From an uncultured Alphaproteobacteria bacterium (GTDB lineage: Bacteria; Pseudomonadota; Alphaproteobacteria; Rs-D84), in the NCBI GenBank assembly GCA_947367055.1, contig CANBCI010000001.1:248001-312000 (forward strand): a DNA stretch of 64,000 nt, in the 5' to 3' direction. Under the pieces are notes generated by a model, which was not told the DNA's origin, searched no databases, and saw nothing but the letters and a program-made list of their open reading frames with translations. This document shows positions 5,620-60,676 of this stretch, one piece after another. The translations under genes and the position numbers were made by a program. Each line of letters opens with the position of its first letter. Within the stretch, counting starts at the first letter, position 1.

Positions 5620-5648
5620 TTTTAGCCTCCGTATGGGTTAAAACAAAA

Positions 5649-5844
5649 ACCACCGGTTTTTTAGGTGGTCAGGAGGCTGAGAACAATTACACGAATTGCG
5701 TGATTTATTGGTTATTTAATCGCCCTCCTGACCGTGGCCAGGAGTTTTATTTATCGTCGTAAATAAAAACGGCGTATTGCGCCAAATATATTCCGACGCG
5801 TGCAATAGGGGTTCTCAGGCCCCGCCGCGGTAACCCACCGCGAC
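5649..5844 (-). promoter_or_regulatory. L-leader copy 1: candidate attenuator or riboswitch
   Basis: Reading the minus strand from about 5844: a 5' hairpin (stem GTCGCGG/CCGCGGC), then a long-range helix TGAGAAC/GTTCTCA, an inner hairpin closed by CTCCTGGCC/GGTCAGGAG, and a second copy of that 5' strand, CCTCCTGACC (5676-5667). The last 3 nt of this copy are the base of an intrinsic terminator (ACCACC/GGTGGT, 5649-5669, then TTTTTG). GGTCAGGAGG can therefore pair either in the inner hairpin or with CCTCCTGACC, and the second pairing would open the terminator base. Four other copies in the window share this logic. Confidence 0.7.
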
Positions 5845-5850
5845 ACATTC

Positions 5851-5879
5851 ATTATATGATTTTATAGGAATGGTGTAAA
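5851..5879 (-). promoter_or_regulatory. promoter of L-leader copy 1
   Basis: Minus strand: TTTACA (5879-5874), a 17-bp spacer, and TATAAT (5856-5851). The predicted start site at about 5844 is the first base of the leader hairpin. Confidence 0.7.
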
Positions 5880-21586: not shown

Positions 21587-21663
21587 TGGTAGCGAAGGAG
21601 GGACTTGAACCCCCGACACGCGGATTATGATTCCGCTGCTCTAACCGGCTGAGCTACTTCGCC
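21587..21663 (-). tRNA. tRNA-Met (CAT), elongator type
   Basis: A complete cloverleaf with encoded CCA: acceptor GGCGAAG/CTTCGCT, D-arm TAGCTCAGCCGGTTAGAGC, anticodon loop TCATAAT, T-arm GGGGGTTCAAGTCCCTC. The body closely follows the alphaproteobacterial elongator tRNA-Met. A CAT anticodon could also belong to tRNA-Ile2, which is less likely. Confidence 0.93.
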
Positions 21664-21713: not shown

Positions 21714-21742
21714 TTGATTTTGCGGTGCGCCCCGGTTATCAT
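21714..21742 (+). promoter_or_regulatory. promoter of L-leader copy 2
   Basis: TTGATT (21714-21719), 17-bp spacer, TATCAT (21737-21742). The predicted start is at about 21749-21750, at the first hairpin. Confidence 0.6.
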
Positions 21743-21749
21743 TGATTTG

Positions 21750-21919
21750 GCGTCGGGTGTTCCGGCGCTGGGATTCAACACCCATTGTATGCGCGTCCGA
21801 GCGGACGTTAAATGCTCCTGCAGATGGCAGGAGTGCGATGCCATATATTGAAAACATCGCGCTATTACGCATACGATAGTGTTGAAACTCCTGCCGTTTT
21901 ATTAAAACGGCTTTTATTT
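21750..21919 (+). promoter_or_regulatory. L-leader copy 2: candidate attenuator or riboswitch upstream of GT8
   Basis: First hairpin GCGTC-GGGTGTTCC-GGCGC, then AACACCC, complementary to the loop (possible pseudoknot). Long-range helices TTCAAC/GTTGAA and TGTATGCG/CGCATACG follow. The inner hairpin is GCTCCTGC/GGCAGGAG(T), and a downstream CTCCTGCC can pair with GGCAGGAG instead. The terminator is GCCGTTTT-ATT-AAAACGGC-TTTTATTT (21893-21919). The first GCC of its stem is shared with the alternative pairing. This is the only copy in front of an enzyme gene and not a cysteine-rich protein. Confidence 0.7.
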
Positions 21920-21942: not shown

Positions 21943-22857
21943 ATGTACAAACACTGGAAATTTCGCGAACGGGTCGCGAAAACGGCGTCAATATTTTTTA
22001 GATCAAAAATAAAACGCAGATATGTGCGCGACAAAATAAGATTTCATGATTTTATTCAATCTGTGGGCGTGCGGGATGTGCCGCTGAAAAAGTATCCCGC
22101 GCCGATTGATGTGGCTTTTTGTTTTGACGGGCGGGGCGCAAATCTGGCGGCGGTTGCGGTGCGGTCGCTGGTTGAGGCGGCGGCGGGACTTTGCGACTAT
22201 TGCGTGTACTGCGTTGTGGACGACAGTGTGACCGCCGCGCAAAAGCGCACGCTTGAAAAAATGGTGGGGCACACTGGGTCAACGGTGACTTTTTTGCCGG
22301 CAAACCACGATTTTGATGCGGCCCGTCGTGCCGGGTGGCCGGTTTCAATATGGTATCGGATGATGCTGCCGAAACTATTGTTAGACGTTGATAAAATAAT
22401 ATATGCCGATATTGATACGATATTTTTCCGTGACTTGGTGGAACTGGCGCGGATTGATATGGGGAAAAACCTGGTTGCGGGCGTTCCCGCGCATGGCAAT
22501 AAATACATGAATTCGGGGTTCCTGGTTTTGAATCTGCGGCAAATTCGCGCGGAAAAACTCTATGAAAAATGGATCGCGGCCGCGCAAATTAAAAACTATC
22601 GCCACCCGGACCAGGATTTGTTGAATTTTACCACCCGCGGGCGTGCGATTTACTTGCCGCTGCGTTACAATTTTCAGACATATATGGGGCGACGCGTCTT
22701 CAAACTGTATTCAACCCGTGAATTGGAGGATTTGCGTCACCACCTGGTTGTCATGCACTTTTCCAATTGGATAAAGCCGTGGGGGGGCCGTGGCCAGCGC
22801 CCCGTGTTTTCCGAATATTGGTGGGATGTGGCGAAAAAGACAGGGCTGTATAAATAA
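21943..22857 (+). CDS. glycosyltransferase family 8 protein
   Basis: GT8 enzymes transfer hexoses from nucleotide sugars, in bacteria commonly to the LPS core. The 304-aa protein has the nucleotide-sugar/metal motif YADIDTIFF (DxD at residues 156-158), the family N-terminal pattern IDVAFCFDGRGANLAAVAVRSL, and LPANHDF and YMNSGFLVLNL. I choose ATG 21943 over 21937 because AGAGG lies 7 nt before it. It is preceded by L-leader copy 2 and followed by a PagL-like gene, which suggests LPS modification. Confidence 0.88.
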   Translation: MYKHWKFRERVAKTASIFFRSKIKRRYVRDKIRFHDFIQSVGVRDVPLKKYPAPIDVAFCFDGRGANLAAVAVRSLVEAAAGLCDYCVYCVVDDSVTAAQKRTLEKMVGHTGSTVTFLPANHDFDAARRAGWPVSIWYRMMLPKLLLDVDKIIYADIDTIFFRDLVELARIDMGKNLVAGVPAHGNKYMNSGFLVLNLRQIRAEKLYEKWIAAAQIKNYRHPDQDLLNFTTRGRAIYLPLRYNFQTYMGRRVFKLYSTRELEDLRHHLVVMHFSNWIKPWGGRGQRPVFSEYWWDVAKKTGLYK

Positions 22858-31710: not shown

Positions 31711-31716
31711 TATAAT
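31711..31716 (+). promoter_or_regulatory. -10 box of L-leader copy 3
   Basis: TATAAT 7 nt before the first base of the leader hairpin (31723). The -35 region is weak. Confidence 0.5.
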
Positions 31717-31722
31717 TGCCTT

Positions 31723-31897
31723 GACGCCGGGTGTTTCGGCGTCGGGGTGTGGAAACCCGTATCAAAGCATCGATACGATGTAAAAAAGACTCCTATCAAA
31801 TGGTAGGAGGGTCGTTGAATATTAAAAATAGACGGCACAATTCTTTGATATTGTTTCCAACCTCCTGCCGCTTTGATTTTTCATGGCGGTTTGATTT
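31723..31897 (+). promoter_or_regulatory. L-leader copy 3: candidate attenuator or riboswitch
   Basis: First hairpin GACGCC-GGGTGTTTC-GGCGTC (31723-31743). Long-range helices follow: TGGAAAC/GTTTCCA and GTATCAAAG/CTTTGATAT. The inner hairpin is CTCCTATC-AAAT-GGTAGGAG, flanked by GAC/GTC. Its 3' strand GGTAGGAGG can pair instead with CCTCCTGCC (31861-31869, one G-U pair), which runs into a terminator stem CCGC/GCGG followed by TTTTGATTTT. The cysteine-rich gene starts at 31923 behind CGGGGGATAA. Confidence 0.7.
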
Positions 31898-31922
31898 TAT
31901 AAGGTCATAACGGGGGATAAAT

Positions 31923-32330
31923 ATGAAATTTTGTATTCAAAACATTATCGTAATTGCGGCGGGTCTGGTTGCAATTGCCGATGCAACGCGGGCTTTTGGT
32001 GCCGTAACAACATGCATGTCATACGAGAACTGCACGAAAAGCATGCTTTGTTCCGGTGATGCGATGTGTTGTCCGACGGGGAATATGGGAACGACAAAAT
32101 CATGCCCGACCGGCTGGGGGTTAAGCGGTTCAACATGCACGCGCAGCGCAACCAACGGTTCGGATTCAAGCGGGTACTACACGCAAACATACGGGACATG
32201 CAACCCCAAGGAAACAAGTTTCGCATGTTATGAAATATCGACGACATATACGGATTCAAAGCAGTGCGCGGCATGCCTTAATGGCGGGATGATTATCAGT
32301 CCGGGCCTGGATTCGGGCATAAAATTATAA
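31923..32330 (+). CDS. small cysteine-rich exported protein (type A paralogue)
   Basis: A 135-aa protein with a signal peptide (IIVIAAGLVAIADATRAFGA region) and about a dozen cysteines. The core MCCPTG-SCPTGWGLSGSTCTR-SSGYYTQTYGTCNP aligns with the 5260-5619 protein, so the two operons (type A then type B, each behind an L-leader) are duplicates. Probably a disulfide-bonded periplasmic or surface protein. Function unknown. Confidence 0.8.
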   Translation: MKFCIQNIIVIAAGLVAIADATRAFGAVTTCMSYENCTKSMLCSGDAMCCPTGNMGTTKSCPTGWGLSGSTCTRSATNGSDSSGYYTQTYGTCNPKETSFACYEISTTYTDSKQCAACLNGGMIISPGLDSGIKL

Positions 32331-35730: not shown

Positions 35731-36062
35731 AAATAAAAATGGCCGGCAACCTCGTGTTTGGGTTTTAGTGAGAAACAAATTGCCGGCCACAAAGTATGTT
35801 GGCGGCACTAAACTTATTTGAATATTATCCTTTACCACCAACATAAATAGATAAGACCTTCAAAATGAAGGTCGGGGTGTTTAGAAAATCGCACATAGTT
35901 CGACCCGCTGGGTTTCAGATATATCACCAGCGCACCCCGACCATAAAACGGCGTTTGGGGTTATGCGGTGCAAACGCACCATCATGGATATTCCGATGCG
36001 ATTCGCACCGACTATGTGAGAGGCTTTCTAACGGCCCCGAACCCAATATCCCTATTGAATTC
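35731..36062 (-). ncRNA. R-RNA copy 2: candidate structured non-coding RNA
   Basis: Transcribed leftward; the first 105 bases on the plus strand (35741 onward) are almost identical to copy 1, and the 5' end CAATA-GGGA-TATTG is identical. Diagnostic long-range helices differ from copy 1 but still pair: TTAGAAA/TTTCTAA and CACATAGT/ACTATGTG. Other arms: GCGGTGC/GCACCG, CGGGGTG/CACCCCG with CGCTGG/CCAGCG inside, GACCTTC/GAAGGTC, and the terminal GGCCGGCAA/TTGCCGGCC followed by ATTTTTATTT (an intrinsic terminator). A TATAAT box (36074-36069) sits upstream; its -35 is weak. Confidence 0.68.
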
Positions 36063-36115
36063 AAATGCATTATACATCATTAAAATAAAAAAGATAGGAA
36101 AAAATTATGTGCGCA

Positions 36116-47256: not shown

Positions 47257-47550
47257 CGAAGTCAGCAGGGATGCTGGGTTCGGGGCCGTTAGAAAGCCTC
47301 TCAAGTAGTCGGTGCGAATCGCATCGGACATATCCAATATGCGTGCATTTGCACCGCTATTAAACCTCTGTCATTAGGCCGGGGTGCCGTTGGAATATGA
47401 AATAGTGGGATAACCCTCAAAATCCAACGGGGTCGACTACTTGCGATTTTCTAAACGCCCCGGCCACTTTTTTGTGGTCTTATCTTTACATATGGCCGGC
47501 ACAGTTTCTCTTCTCCCAAAAAAATGAAAATATGTTGCCGGCCATTTTTT
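47257..47550 (+). ncRNA. R-RNA copy 3: divergent candidate structured non-coding RNA
   Basis: Same order of helices as copies 1 and 2 but with changed bases: CAGCA-GGGA-TGCTG, TTAGAAA/TTTCTAA, CAAGTAGTC/GACTACTTG, CGGTGCGAATCGCATCGG region with GCACCG, GGCCGGGGTG/CGCCCCGGCC, GGCCAC-TTTTTT-GTGGTC, and the terminal GCCGGC(A)/TTGCCGGC stem followed by ATTTTTTA. It lacks the TATGTTGG/CCAACATA hairpin of the other two, so that arm is optional. It ends just before the convergent tRNA-Thr terminator. Confidence 0.65.
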
Positions 47551-47591: not shown

Positions 47592-47665
47592 TGGTGCCCT
47601 AAGCAAGAATCGGACTTGCGACTCGTCCTTACCAAGGACGTGTTTTACCACTAGACTATTAGGGC
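47592..47665 (-). tRNA. tRNA-Thr (GGT)
   Basis: Acceptor GCCCTAA/TTAGGGC with encoded ACCA, D-arm AGTCTAGTGGTAAAACA, anticodon stem CGTCC/GGACG with loop TTGGTAA, T-arm CAAGTCCGATTCTTG. 74 nt. Confidence 0.9.
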
Positions 47666-47733: not shown

Positions 47734-47762
47734 TTGAATTACCCGAAGGGTTAGGGTATAAT
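47734..47762 (+). promoter_or_regulatory. promoter of L-leader copy 4
   Basis: TTGAAT (47734-47739), 17-bp spacer, TATAAT (47757-47762). The leader hairpin starts at 47769. Confidence 0.7.
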
Positions 47763-47768
47763 AATCCT

Positions 47769-47955
47769 ATCCGGGGTGTTCCCGGATTGGGTTTAGCAAC
47801 CCATTGTTTTAGGTTGATTGCTTTGCAATCGTAAAAATCCGTCGCTATGGGCGACTGGATGGTGGTGAATATATTGAATAAACCACACTGTTTCCTAAAG
47901 CACAGTTGCTAACTCCAGTCGCCACCCGATATTTATCCGGTGGTATGTTTTTTAT
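47769..47955 (+). promoter_or_regulatory. L-leader copy 4: divergent candidate attenuator or riboswitch
   Basis: First hairpin ATCCG-GGGTGTTCC-CGGAT, then GGGTTTAGCAACCC. Long-range helices: TAGCAAC/GTTGCTA and TGTTTTAGG/CCTAAAGCA. The inner hairpin uses GTCGC/GCGAC where the other copies use CTCCTG/CAGGAG, and the downstream TCCAGTCGCC is complementary to its 3' strand GGCGACTGGA, so both alternative pairings are preserved by compensatory change. A terminator stem CCACC/GGTGG (from 47922) is followed by TATGTTTTTTA. Confidence 0.68.
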
Positions 47956-59830: not shown

Positions 59831-59858
59831 TTGCAAACAATTGCGGCCATGCTATAAT
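59831..59858 (+). promoter_or_regulatory. promoter of L-leader copy 5
   Basis: TTGCAA (59831-59836), 16-bp spacer, TATAAT (59853-59858); start at about 59865. Confidence 0.65.
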
Positions 59859-59864
59859 ATCCAA

Positions 59865-60064
59865 TGTCGGCGGGTGTTTCGCCGACGGGGTGTGAGAACC
59901 TCGCTTAAGCGTCGTGATAATAATTGGCGCATTGCGCCTTTATTTATTTCGATGAAAAACTCCTGGCCTCTGGGTCAGGAGGGTCGCTTAATATAAAAAT
60001 ACGCGGCACAATACTTAAGATTGTTCTCAACCTCCTGACCACTGAATTTCGGTGGTTTTTTATT
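59865..60064 (+). promoter_or_regulatory. L-leader copy 5: candidate attenuator or riboswitch
   Basis: First hairpin GTCGGC-GGGTGTTTC-GCCGAC (59866-59886). Long-range helices TGAGAAC/GTTCTCA and CTTAAG/CTTAAG follow. The inner hairpin is CTCCTGGCC-TCT-GGGTCAGGAG. CCTCCTGACC (60031-60040) pairs perfectly with GGTCAGGAGG and shares ACC with the terminator stem ACCACTG/CGGTGGT, which is followed by TTTTTT. The start codon is 27 bp further on, behind GAAGGGGG. Confidence 0.72.
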
Positions 60065-60091
60065 TGATTCAAAGAAGGGGGAATAGAACTT

Positions 60092-60676
60092 ATGAAATTT
60101 TTATGCTTTTTAGTGCTTGCCGGGACGGCCGCATTTTGTTTGCAAGATGCGCATGCCGCAACAATACATACCTGCATGCAGAGTTACACATGCAGCAGTG
60201 AATGCACTGTTCTAACCAGGGTTTCCAATTGTTTCTCGTACCGAACGATTTACTATGAACCGTACGGCGGTGTCCAGACGTGCGACACGTGCGAATCCGG
60301 GTATGAGCGGACGGAACATACTTTGCAGCTTGCGACGGCATGCACCGCGACATATTATACATGTGAAGAAATCTGCAACGGTTGCACAAATTGCGTCAGT
60401 GACACGTCGTGGGGTGCCGGCGCCGCCGGATATGAAGTCATGGCAAAACGGCAATGTTATTGTAATACGTGCAGTGAGACATATTCTTTTCGCTGTGCCG
60501 CCGGATATTGGGGTAGCAGTAACAACGGCACATCCGGATGCACAAAATGTCCGGCGCCCGGTACATCGCCCGCGGGTGCGACAAGCGCCACGCAATGCTA
60601 TGTCGCGGCCGGCGTAAAAACAACCGATACGACCGGTAACTACGAATTTACATCCCCGTGCTACAATTCAAATTAA
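60092..60676 (+). CDS. cysteine-rich exported protein with C-terminal type B module
   Basis: A 194-aa protein with a signal peptide (MKFLCFLVLAGTAAFCLQDAHA) and about 27 cysteines. The N-terminal part has closely spaced CxxxC/CxxC pairs (CMQSYTCSSEC, CDTCESGYE, CEEICNGCTNC). The last third (FRCAAGYWGSSN, CTKCPAPGTSPAG, QCYVAAGVKTTDTTG, YEFTSPC) matches the type B proteins at 4972 and 32356, so this gene looks like a larger member of the same family. Probably periplasmic or surface exposed. No function recognised. Confidence 0.8.
   Translation: MKFLCFLVLAGTAAFCLQDAHAATIHTCMQSYTCSSECTVLTRVSNCFSYRTIYYEPYGGVQTCDTCESGYERTEHTLQLATACTATYYTCEEICNGCTNCVSDTSWGAGAAGYEVMAKRQCYCNTCSETYSFRCAAGYWGSSNNGTSGCTKCPAPGTSPAGATSATQCYVAAGVKTTDTTGNYEFTSPCYNSN

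Follow-up and report, generated by a model that had tools for sequence, protein, structure and literature searches.

The described systems closest to the leader analysed here are the C4 antisense RNA of phages P1 and P7 (RF01695), c4-a1b1 (RF03163), IsrK of prophage Gifsy-1 (RF01394), and sRNA-Xcc1 (RF02221). In the phage P1 record, the order is P1c4 promoter, a1, b1, C4, a2, b2, and icd. In the P1 sequence itself, a 5' hairpin is followed by a1, b1, and a further hairpin whose end is TGCGGTATTTTTGTG. The C4 model is composed of a stem, a hairpin, a second hairpin, a linker, and a stem. According to the accessible part of PMC5320573, C4 is excised by RNase P and base-pairs with the mRNAs that it targets; its b' covers ribosome-binding sites (RBS) and its a' gives the specificity. 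The same part describes C4-like "Group 1" sRNAs of Acinetobacter baumannii, which are present in many copies in one genome, as the leaders are here. These are processed sRNAs, however, and leaders with a terminator before envelope genes are not described in that part.

The isrK-orf45 RNA of Gifsy-1 has a silent structure A, in which the 5' part is paired with the body, and an active structure B, in which each is folded alone; short IsrK acts in trans (PMC4825925, accessible part). The terms "C4 RNA", "phage P1", and "sRNA-Xcc1" are absent from the IsrK paper (PMC4825925). In Xanthomonas integrons, sRNA-Xcc1 is located upstream of symE, as far as PMC12444791 is accessible, and this position fits a leader role. 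In the accessible portion of the literature searched, sRNA-Xcc1 and C4 antisense RNA co-occur as separate annotations. Among the Rfam clans, C4 and c4-a1b1 are placed together, and sRNA-Xcc1 is in none.

The window, which is the whole 64-kb (64,000-nt) stretch of DNA analysed, belongs to a genome of 959,553 bases in five contigs. The leader at 59865-60064 (+) can be divided into the following parts.

59831-59858 (+): promoter-like sequence, read from the letters, with -35 TTGCAA at 59831-59836 and -10 TATAAT at 59853-59858
59866-59886 (+): P1, the 5' hairpin, from the computed fold and covariation in the short class
59887-59902 (+): P2, a local hairpin whose loop holds a1, the 5' strand of P2b (59893-59899)
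59904-59909 (+): b1, the 5' strand of P3
59909-59954 (+): P4, of the long class, whose tip GGCGC-GCGCC-TTTATTTATTT (59926-59949) resembles the first terminator, T1
59960-59968 (+): 5' arm of P5, from fold and covariation
59973-59982 (+): X, the 3' arm of P5, with Y as alternative partner
59983-60007 (+): P6, a hairpin with a conserved AAUA-rich loop
60008-60024 (+): P7, hairpin ACAAT-ATTGT, whose loop is b' (the 3' strand of P3)
60023-60029 (+): a', the 3' strand of P2b, GTTCTCA
60031-60040 (+): Y, CCTCCTGACC, putative partner of X in the antiterminated fold; its 3'-most bases are the 5' side of T2
60039-60065 (+): T2, putative intrinsic terminator CCAC-GTGG-TTTTTT
60092-60676 (+): downstream ORF of 194 aa with a signal-peptide-like start and 21 Cys; no Pfam match at E<=0.01

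The other copies within the window are as follows.

5645-5856 (-): copy 2, long class, with TATAAT, the leader, a T1-like element at 5783-5761, and T2 at 5669-5645
5619-5260 (-): ORF behind copy 2, 119 aa, secreted-like, 12 Cys
21736-21919 (+): copy 3, short class; its ORF, 21943-22857, is a glycosyltransferase family 8 gene
31711-31898 (+): copy 4, short class; its ORF, 31923-32330, is 135 aa, secreted-like, with 12 Cys
47757-47953 (+): copy 5, short class; letters of X, Y, and P5 differ with pairing kept
from 47977 (+): ORF behind copy 5, 51 aa, lipoprotein-like by eye
35846-36074 (-): sixth copy, third subtype, with a P6 nearer to that of sRNA-Xcc1 and T2 at 35873-35846; found with RF02221
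47261-47487 (+): seventh copy, third subtype, E 0.0036 in the search of selected loci

An earlier, sequence-only reading of this DNA had described the leader at 59865 and copies 2 to 5, each with a promoter directly upstream and a terminator just before a start codon. All five were confirmed by reading the sequence. Four have a TATAAT whose end is 6-7 nt upstream of the 5' hairpin; the copy at 21749 has TATCAT at this place. A terminator-like hairpin with a T-rich tail stands ahead of each of the five start codons. The window copies share one architecture, in which P1 is followed by the long-range helices P2a/P2b and P3, then by a junction of P5, P6, and the variable P4, and finally by T2. Folded alone, the five copies have z scores of -8.60, -5.68, -6.91, -6.83, and -5.57, and one further copy from the same genome has -8.73. 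In each of these six copies, none of 200 dinucleotide shuffles folds as well as the native leader.

A second fold, absent from the earlier description, is formed by the 3' arm of P5 with CCTCCTGACC together with hairpin P7, and it is mutually exclusive with the first. In the proposed terminating fold (fold T), a1 and b1 would pair with a' and b' as P2b and P3, P5 would form, the 3' end of Y would be free, and T2 would form and stop transcription. In the alternative (fold A), the local P2 hairpin would hold a1, the P7 loop would hold b', and X would pair with Y. Y would then be occupied, including the 5' side of T2, and the polymerase would enter the gene. Y shares bases with the start of T2, that is, the terminator overlaps one of the two exclusive helices. 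Fold A should hinder T2 because X:Y takes the first bases of T2.

The comparison was based on 127 distinct leaders, which are 130 model matches minus three poor ones (L099 519-700, L035 994-1200, and L097 1146-1310), drawn from selected loci rather than from all matches of the genome searches. Leaders of more than 172 nt constitute the long class (42 leaders), and the other 85 the short class. TANNNT is present at most 20 nt before P1 in 115 of the 127, and in 37 of 127 for a 20-nt control stretch further upstream. The strands of the long-range helices match their own partners and not those across the 127 related leaders, consistent with the earlier observation that pairing is kept despite base changes. 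Own pairing is above the 95th percentile of cross-leader pairing in 95 (P1), 113 (P2b), and 95 (P3) of the 127 leaders. The tandem pairing of a1b1 with a'b' is above the 95th percentile of cross pairings in 122/127 leaders and above the 99th in 115/127. P7 is not above chance in this test (9/127) because its variation is mainly at one position. Another early claim, a constant P1 loop, is not seen in the larger set: GGTGTT is within the first 16 nt of only 39/127 leaders. Pairing between the P1 loop and the 3' side of P6 was examined by eye, had no covariation, and was dropped.

Covariation is clear for both folds in an alignment of 30 short leaders. For fold T (P1, P2a, P2b, P5, and P6), 92.8% of the cells are paired and 20 of 32 pairs are changed on both sides. 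The covariation score is 0.561, compared with 0.191 for shuffles and at most 0.124 when the partners are slid. For fold A (P1, local P2, X:Y, P6, and P7), 95.3% of the cells are paired and the score is 0.551 (shuffles 0.198; partners slid, at most 0.156). X:Y alone is paired in 98.9% of the cells, and both sides vary in four of its nine pairs. In P7, one pair is A-U in 16 of the 30 leaders and U-A in the other 14, and local P2 has no two-sided change. The number of two-sided-change pairs in fold A is equalled in 122 of 500 shuffles, as P7 and local P2 vary little. The fold T pair 25-173 is lost in 8/30 leaders, and the X:Y pair at that column is kept in seven of those. P3 is not alignable by column, and a helix of 5-10 pairs, with G-U allowed, is present in 30/30. 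RNAalifold picks fold A from the alignment unprompted.

Single-sequence folding nearly always gives fold T, and X:Y appears in the minimum-energy fold of 2/127 leaders cut at Y. The best fold is computed to be more stable than fold A by a median of 6.9 kcal/mol for RNA ending at Y and 11.1 kcal/mol with T2, where the energies are those of the finished RNA and co-transcriptional folding and pseudoknots are ignored. Given this difference, the switch is probably off by default, and fold T would be the default state. Candidate triggers of fold A are a binder of the P6 loop, a trans RNA that bears a'b' and acts on a1b1, or the speed of the polymerase.

T2 is found directly after Y in 119/127 leaders, compared with 61/635 mononucleotide shuffles, and in 15/16 leaders from other alphaproteobacterial families. 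As judged from the aligned leaders, both helix sets are conserved and mutually exclusive, and T2 is nearly always present. The helix exchange would set the read-through. The comparison supports the earlier view of a putative attenuator with selected RNA structure.

ORFs were called when ATG with a purine-rich upstream element and at least 40 aa was found within 140 nt. Such an ORF is behind 105/127 leaders, with the median start 48 nt past the model end. By a crude hydrophobicity rule, 74 of the 105 have a secreted-like start, and many are Cys-rich, in a set that includes many truncated and some doubtful ORFs. The Pfam scan covered 53 of the 65 complete downstream ORFs, and at most 20 of the 53 proteins have a match at E<=0.001. 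Glycosyltransferase family 8, Stealth, PAP2, outer-membrane beta-barrel, and HTH are among the families matched. For leaders from other alphaproteobacterial families, the ORFs behind them are, by reading, lipoprotein-like, outer-membrane-like, or pilin-like, and one resembles an XRE regulator. Three leaders from these families (L165, L173, and L174) are before an ORF starting with GRSMVEMLG or GRSMIEMLG, which is pilin-like.

From these data, the leader is a real and widespread RNA switch, a variant of the C4/IsrK/sRNA-Xcc1 kind that most likely functions as an attenuator. More specifically, it is probably a C4/IsrK/sRNA-Xcc1-type RNA converted into a cis-acting transcription attenuator of envelope or secreted proteins.

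The sequence-only reading regarded the leader as a new class. It stands that Rfam at gathering scores reports no family except tRNA in the window, and no known riboswitch or leader identity was obtained in this way. The separateness is upheld only in part, as the 3' half of related leaders matches RF02221 below the cut-off and the layout is that of phage P1 C4. By their curated scores, the leader is outside RF02221 and RF01695, and it is not an unrelated riboswitch class.

With permissive settings, RF02221 matched six of ten leader loci: L169 with 45.4 bits (E 3.6e-5), L165 with 33.8, L172 with 33.7, L174 with 30.0, L025 with 26.8, and L177 with 24 bits. The other four had no match at E<=5. 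None of 21 genomes reaches the gathering score of 53 bits, the best being 46.7. The four alignments displayed span the whole 87-position model (1-87). The outer stem of the model corresponds to X:Y, its first hairpin (AAUACAA, GAAUA) to P6, and its second hairpin to P7. The leaders have the RF02221 layout of closing stem, P6 with the AAUA/GAAUA internal loop, P7, and linker, and the helices covary. Of 14 control genomes, two have RF02221 matches at E<=1 and none at E<=0.001.

RF02221 exceeds its own cut-off in 35/299 genomes of the phylum, and 30 loci, the best matches of this phylum search rather than all, were compared with the leaders. Many of them, like the window form, have an upstream a1 hairpin and a b1 strand. 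In most of the loci read, the upstream elements are a hairpin whose loop carries a1, then b1 and the terminator-like hairpin T1, and a' and b' of the RF02221 body are complementary to the upstream a1 and b1. The tandem pairing with upstream a1b1 is above the 95th percentile in 18/30 and above the 99th in 12/30. A second a-b copy (a2b2) at the downstream RBS is above the 95th in 14/30 and above the 99th in 6/30. Looser tests gave 8/30 for P2b alone and 5/30 for P3 alone within 220 nt upstream, and the tandem test gave 16/30 within 220 nt and 12 and 6/30 in narrower windows. The 5' arm of P5 as the partner of X was rejected in these loci (1/30 above the 95th percentile).

Similar loci are found in viral contigs. 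The viral set consists of 67 distinct cores with enough flank, from 80 of at least 120 stretches. Among the matches listed, a1b1 upstream is above the 95th percentile in 25/67 and a2b2 downstream in 33/67, while the controls give 4 and 1/67. Over the four tests on RF02221-type loci, 37-60% of the loci are above the 95% line. Pfam families for 51 downstream viral ORFs, among the matches listed, are P22_AR_C (15), AntA (11), KilA-N (10), Bro-N (9), Rha (7), P22_AR_N (6), ORF6N (6), ORF6C (5), and ORF11CD3 (1), and these families overlap. They are antirepressor and phage regulator types. Three viral contigs (L376, L400, and L408) have two sRNA-Xcc1 cores each, 243-534 nt apart. An exact pattern of the alphaproteobacterial form was not found in viral contigs, which is weak evidence since one pattern only was used.

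The two forms would differ in their outputs. T1 is present in 25/30 RF02221 loci (shuffles 12/150) and, among the matches listed, in 43/67 viral loci, and T2 is rare in both (2/30 and 5/67). The window form has T2 and is without the RBS copy. Within the leaders, T1 is present in 33/42 of the long class (shuffles 20/210) and in 0/85 of the short class (shuffles 3/425). The simplest series would lead from the phage type (T1, translational output) through the long class (T1 and T2) to the short class (T2 only), with the direction inferred. The RF02221 model covers only the 3' half of the leader. The Rfam sRNA-Xcc1 entry contains neither the a1b1-T1 half upstream nor the a2b2 sites downstream, both of which many of its loci have. 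sRNA-Xcc1 may belong with the C4 clan.

The leader and the C4 systems of P1 and P7, with c4-a1b1, have in common the promoter, 5' hairpin, a1, b1, T1-like hairpin, and body. The shared body is a stem, a hairpin, a hairpin with b' in its loop, a', and a stem. As in C4, the leaders carry b' in the loop of a hairpin and a' in the linker, and these are complementary to the upstream b1 and a1 (122/127). The T1-end motif GCGGTATTTTTGYG is present in P1 and in 7/30 RF02221 loci. Unlike C4, the leaders are without a2b2 and their output would be T2. By score, the C4 covariance model had no match at E<=10 in seven leader loci, nor at E<=5 in ten loci, and the c4-a1b1 match on the P1-P2-P3 strand of L163 (E 9.5) is at chance level. 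Common descent is therefore argued from the layout and helix order, because RF02221 is below its curated cut-off and C4 is unmatched. On the a1b1-T1 part of P1 (L334 131-212), the isrK model scores 35.1 bits, below its cut-off of 50, and isrK hence looks like the 5' half of the same system. Like the leader, IsrK-orf45-anrP is, by the accessible description, one RNA with silent and active structures; unlike it, IsrK acts on orf45/anrP translation in a prophage.

The likeness to C4 and IsrK raises another possibility, that a leader after termination, or a body that RNase P has cut free, targets other leaders or mRNAs. RNase P processing with target pairing of C4 and trans action of short IsrK are both described in the accessible parts of PMC5320573 and PMC4825925, a short a1b1 RNA might be freed at T1, which 33/42 long leaders have, and two window copies are without a gene directly downstream. 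This trans network is the strongest of the alternatives but unlikely, as a2b2 at the downstream RBS is not beyond chance: 10/127 leaders are above the 95th percentile (6 expected), 3/127 above the 99th, and at class level 1/16. In addition, non-cognate pairs reach the cognate median in 2.4% (b) and 4.6% (a) of cases within the genome of the window, and the values between genomes are similar (3.2% and 3.4%). Because cross scores are nearly equal within and between genomes, the copies were not taken to be under selection for private addresses.

The P6 loop is strongly conserved in the alignments and is unexplained by a1b1 pairing. With the junction, it could be an aptamer at which a small molecule stabilises one fold, and the many copies ahead of envelope-like or secreted-like ORFs would suit such a riboswitch. 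The P1 loop is not conserved (39/127), though, and internal antisense pairing accounts for the parts other than the P6 loop with no need of a ligand. Viral RF02221 loci before antirepressor-type genes, where a metabolite is less expected, have an AAUA-type P6 internal loop as well. A riboswitch is thus considered improbable. The same loop, or P1, could instead bind a protein that lets RNA polymerase past T2; each leader's own promoter and the position of several leaders before XRE-type regulators are compatible with this. No candidate protein is found among the neighbours, and helix exchange alone would suffice, so protein-dependent antitermination is about as improbable as a riboswitch. The reading as a cis attenuator driven by helix exchange is preferred to both.

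Blastn with the copy at 59865 found ten places in the genome of the window. The covariance model R1, built from ten own-genome copies, has 39 matches in it at E<1e-4. A search with RF02221 added six copies of a third subtype (E<=0.0052). The genome of less than 1 Mb has at least 45 copies, because 39 were found with R1 and six with RF02221; the five of the sequence-only reading were thus a small part, and even the window has the further copies at 36074-35846 (-) and 47261-47487 (+). With at least 45 copies per 0.96 Mb, a dispersed repeat such as a mobile element remnant without a regulatory role might be suspected, but this is extremely improbable: in the long pieces that blastn aligns, the copies are only 72-75% identical and show compensatory changes, covariation contradicts it, most copies follow a promoter-like box and precede an ORF, and two genomes have, as compared by eye, similar leaders in front of similar glycosyltransferase-like ORFs (L024 and L132).

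Homologues outside the contig are numerous. R1 matches 40 of 59 genomes: 34/35 of the same genus (including the genome of the window), 6/18 others of the order, and 0/6 others of the class. The model R2, built from the 30 short leaders, matches 183/201 genomes of the order. Among 385 genomes sampled across the class, R2 matches 22, namely the genome of the window, three of its genus, and 18 of other families, and all 22 are 0.9-2.1 Mb. These large R2 searches undercount because the filters are strict and few candidates are scored per genome. Among the matches listed, an exact pattern occurs in Candidatus Enterousia intestinigallinarum and also in numerous MAGs of uncultured Alphaproteobacteria and "Rickettsiales", several of them with titles that name sheep, goat, deer, or buffalo guts. 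Named records share DNA with genomes of the same genus as that of the window, which probably belongs to Enterousia. Enterousia belongs to the order Rs-D84 and has reduced genomes, according to the accessible part of PMC12306168.

The ancestor may have been a phage-type antirepressor leader, in which a'/b' acted on an a-b copy at the RBS and whose output has been replaced by T2. It can be speculated further, and only tentatively, that a phage antirepressor RNA was domesticated: it would have lost the RBS target, gained a terminator, and spread until a 1-Mb genome held a genome-wide regulon with no fewer than 45 leaders. Its P6 loop would sense a common signal, and it would replace ordinary transcription factors for surface or secreted proteins of a reduced gut symbiont.

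If the attenuator reading is true, one two-state architecture links sRNA-Xcc1 with C4, c4-a1b1, and isrK, which are filed apart, and the Rfam sRNA-Xcc1 entry would be the 3' half of a larger switch. A phage-type antisense RNA would have given rise to a class of attenuators of which single genomes hold dozens, and a testable handle would be available on the control of surface proteins in uncultured gut Alphaproteobacteria with reduced genomes. A search of mostly non-subscription literature, as far as its texts were accessible, gave nothing apparently relevant on structured RNA attenuators in gut Alphaproteobacteria. Within this mostly non-subscription literature, the attenuator form is apparently not in print.

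Leaders are also found in tandem, two or more in a row, at four places: G000 C5:20836-21237, C1:52088-52482, C3:163632-163990, and C3:144123-144959 (L030, L095, L096, and L097). Two arrays are before XRE-like ORFs and one before a secreted-like ORF. At the fourth, the contig ends after MSGRS, a start common to the XRE-like ORFs.

The third-subtype copies of the window, 47261-47487 (+) and 36074-35846 (-), are followed by another hairpin, GCCGGC-rich and with a T run, and have no gene directly downstream. The former is missing from the whole-genome R1 list, and no same-strand ORF of at least 80 aa is listed between it and the leader at 47769. Both may be stand-alone RNAs. Three leaders have a divergent tRNA gene (21590-21663, 47595-47665, and L036 1337-1410) about 85-105 nt from the 5' hairpin.
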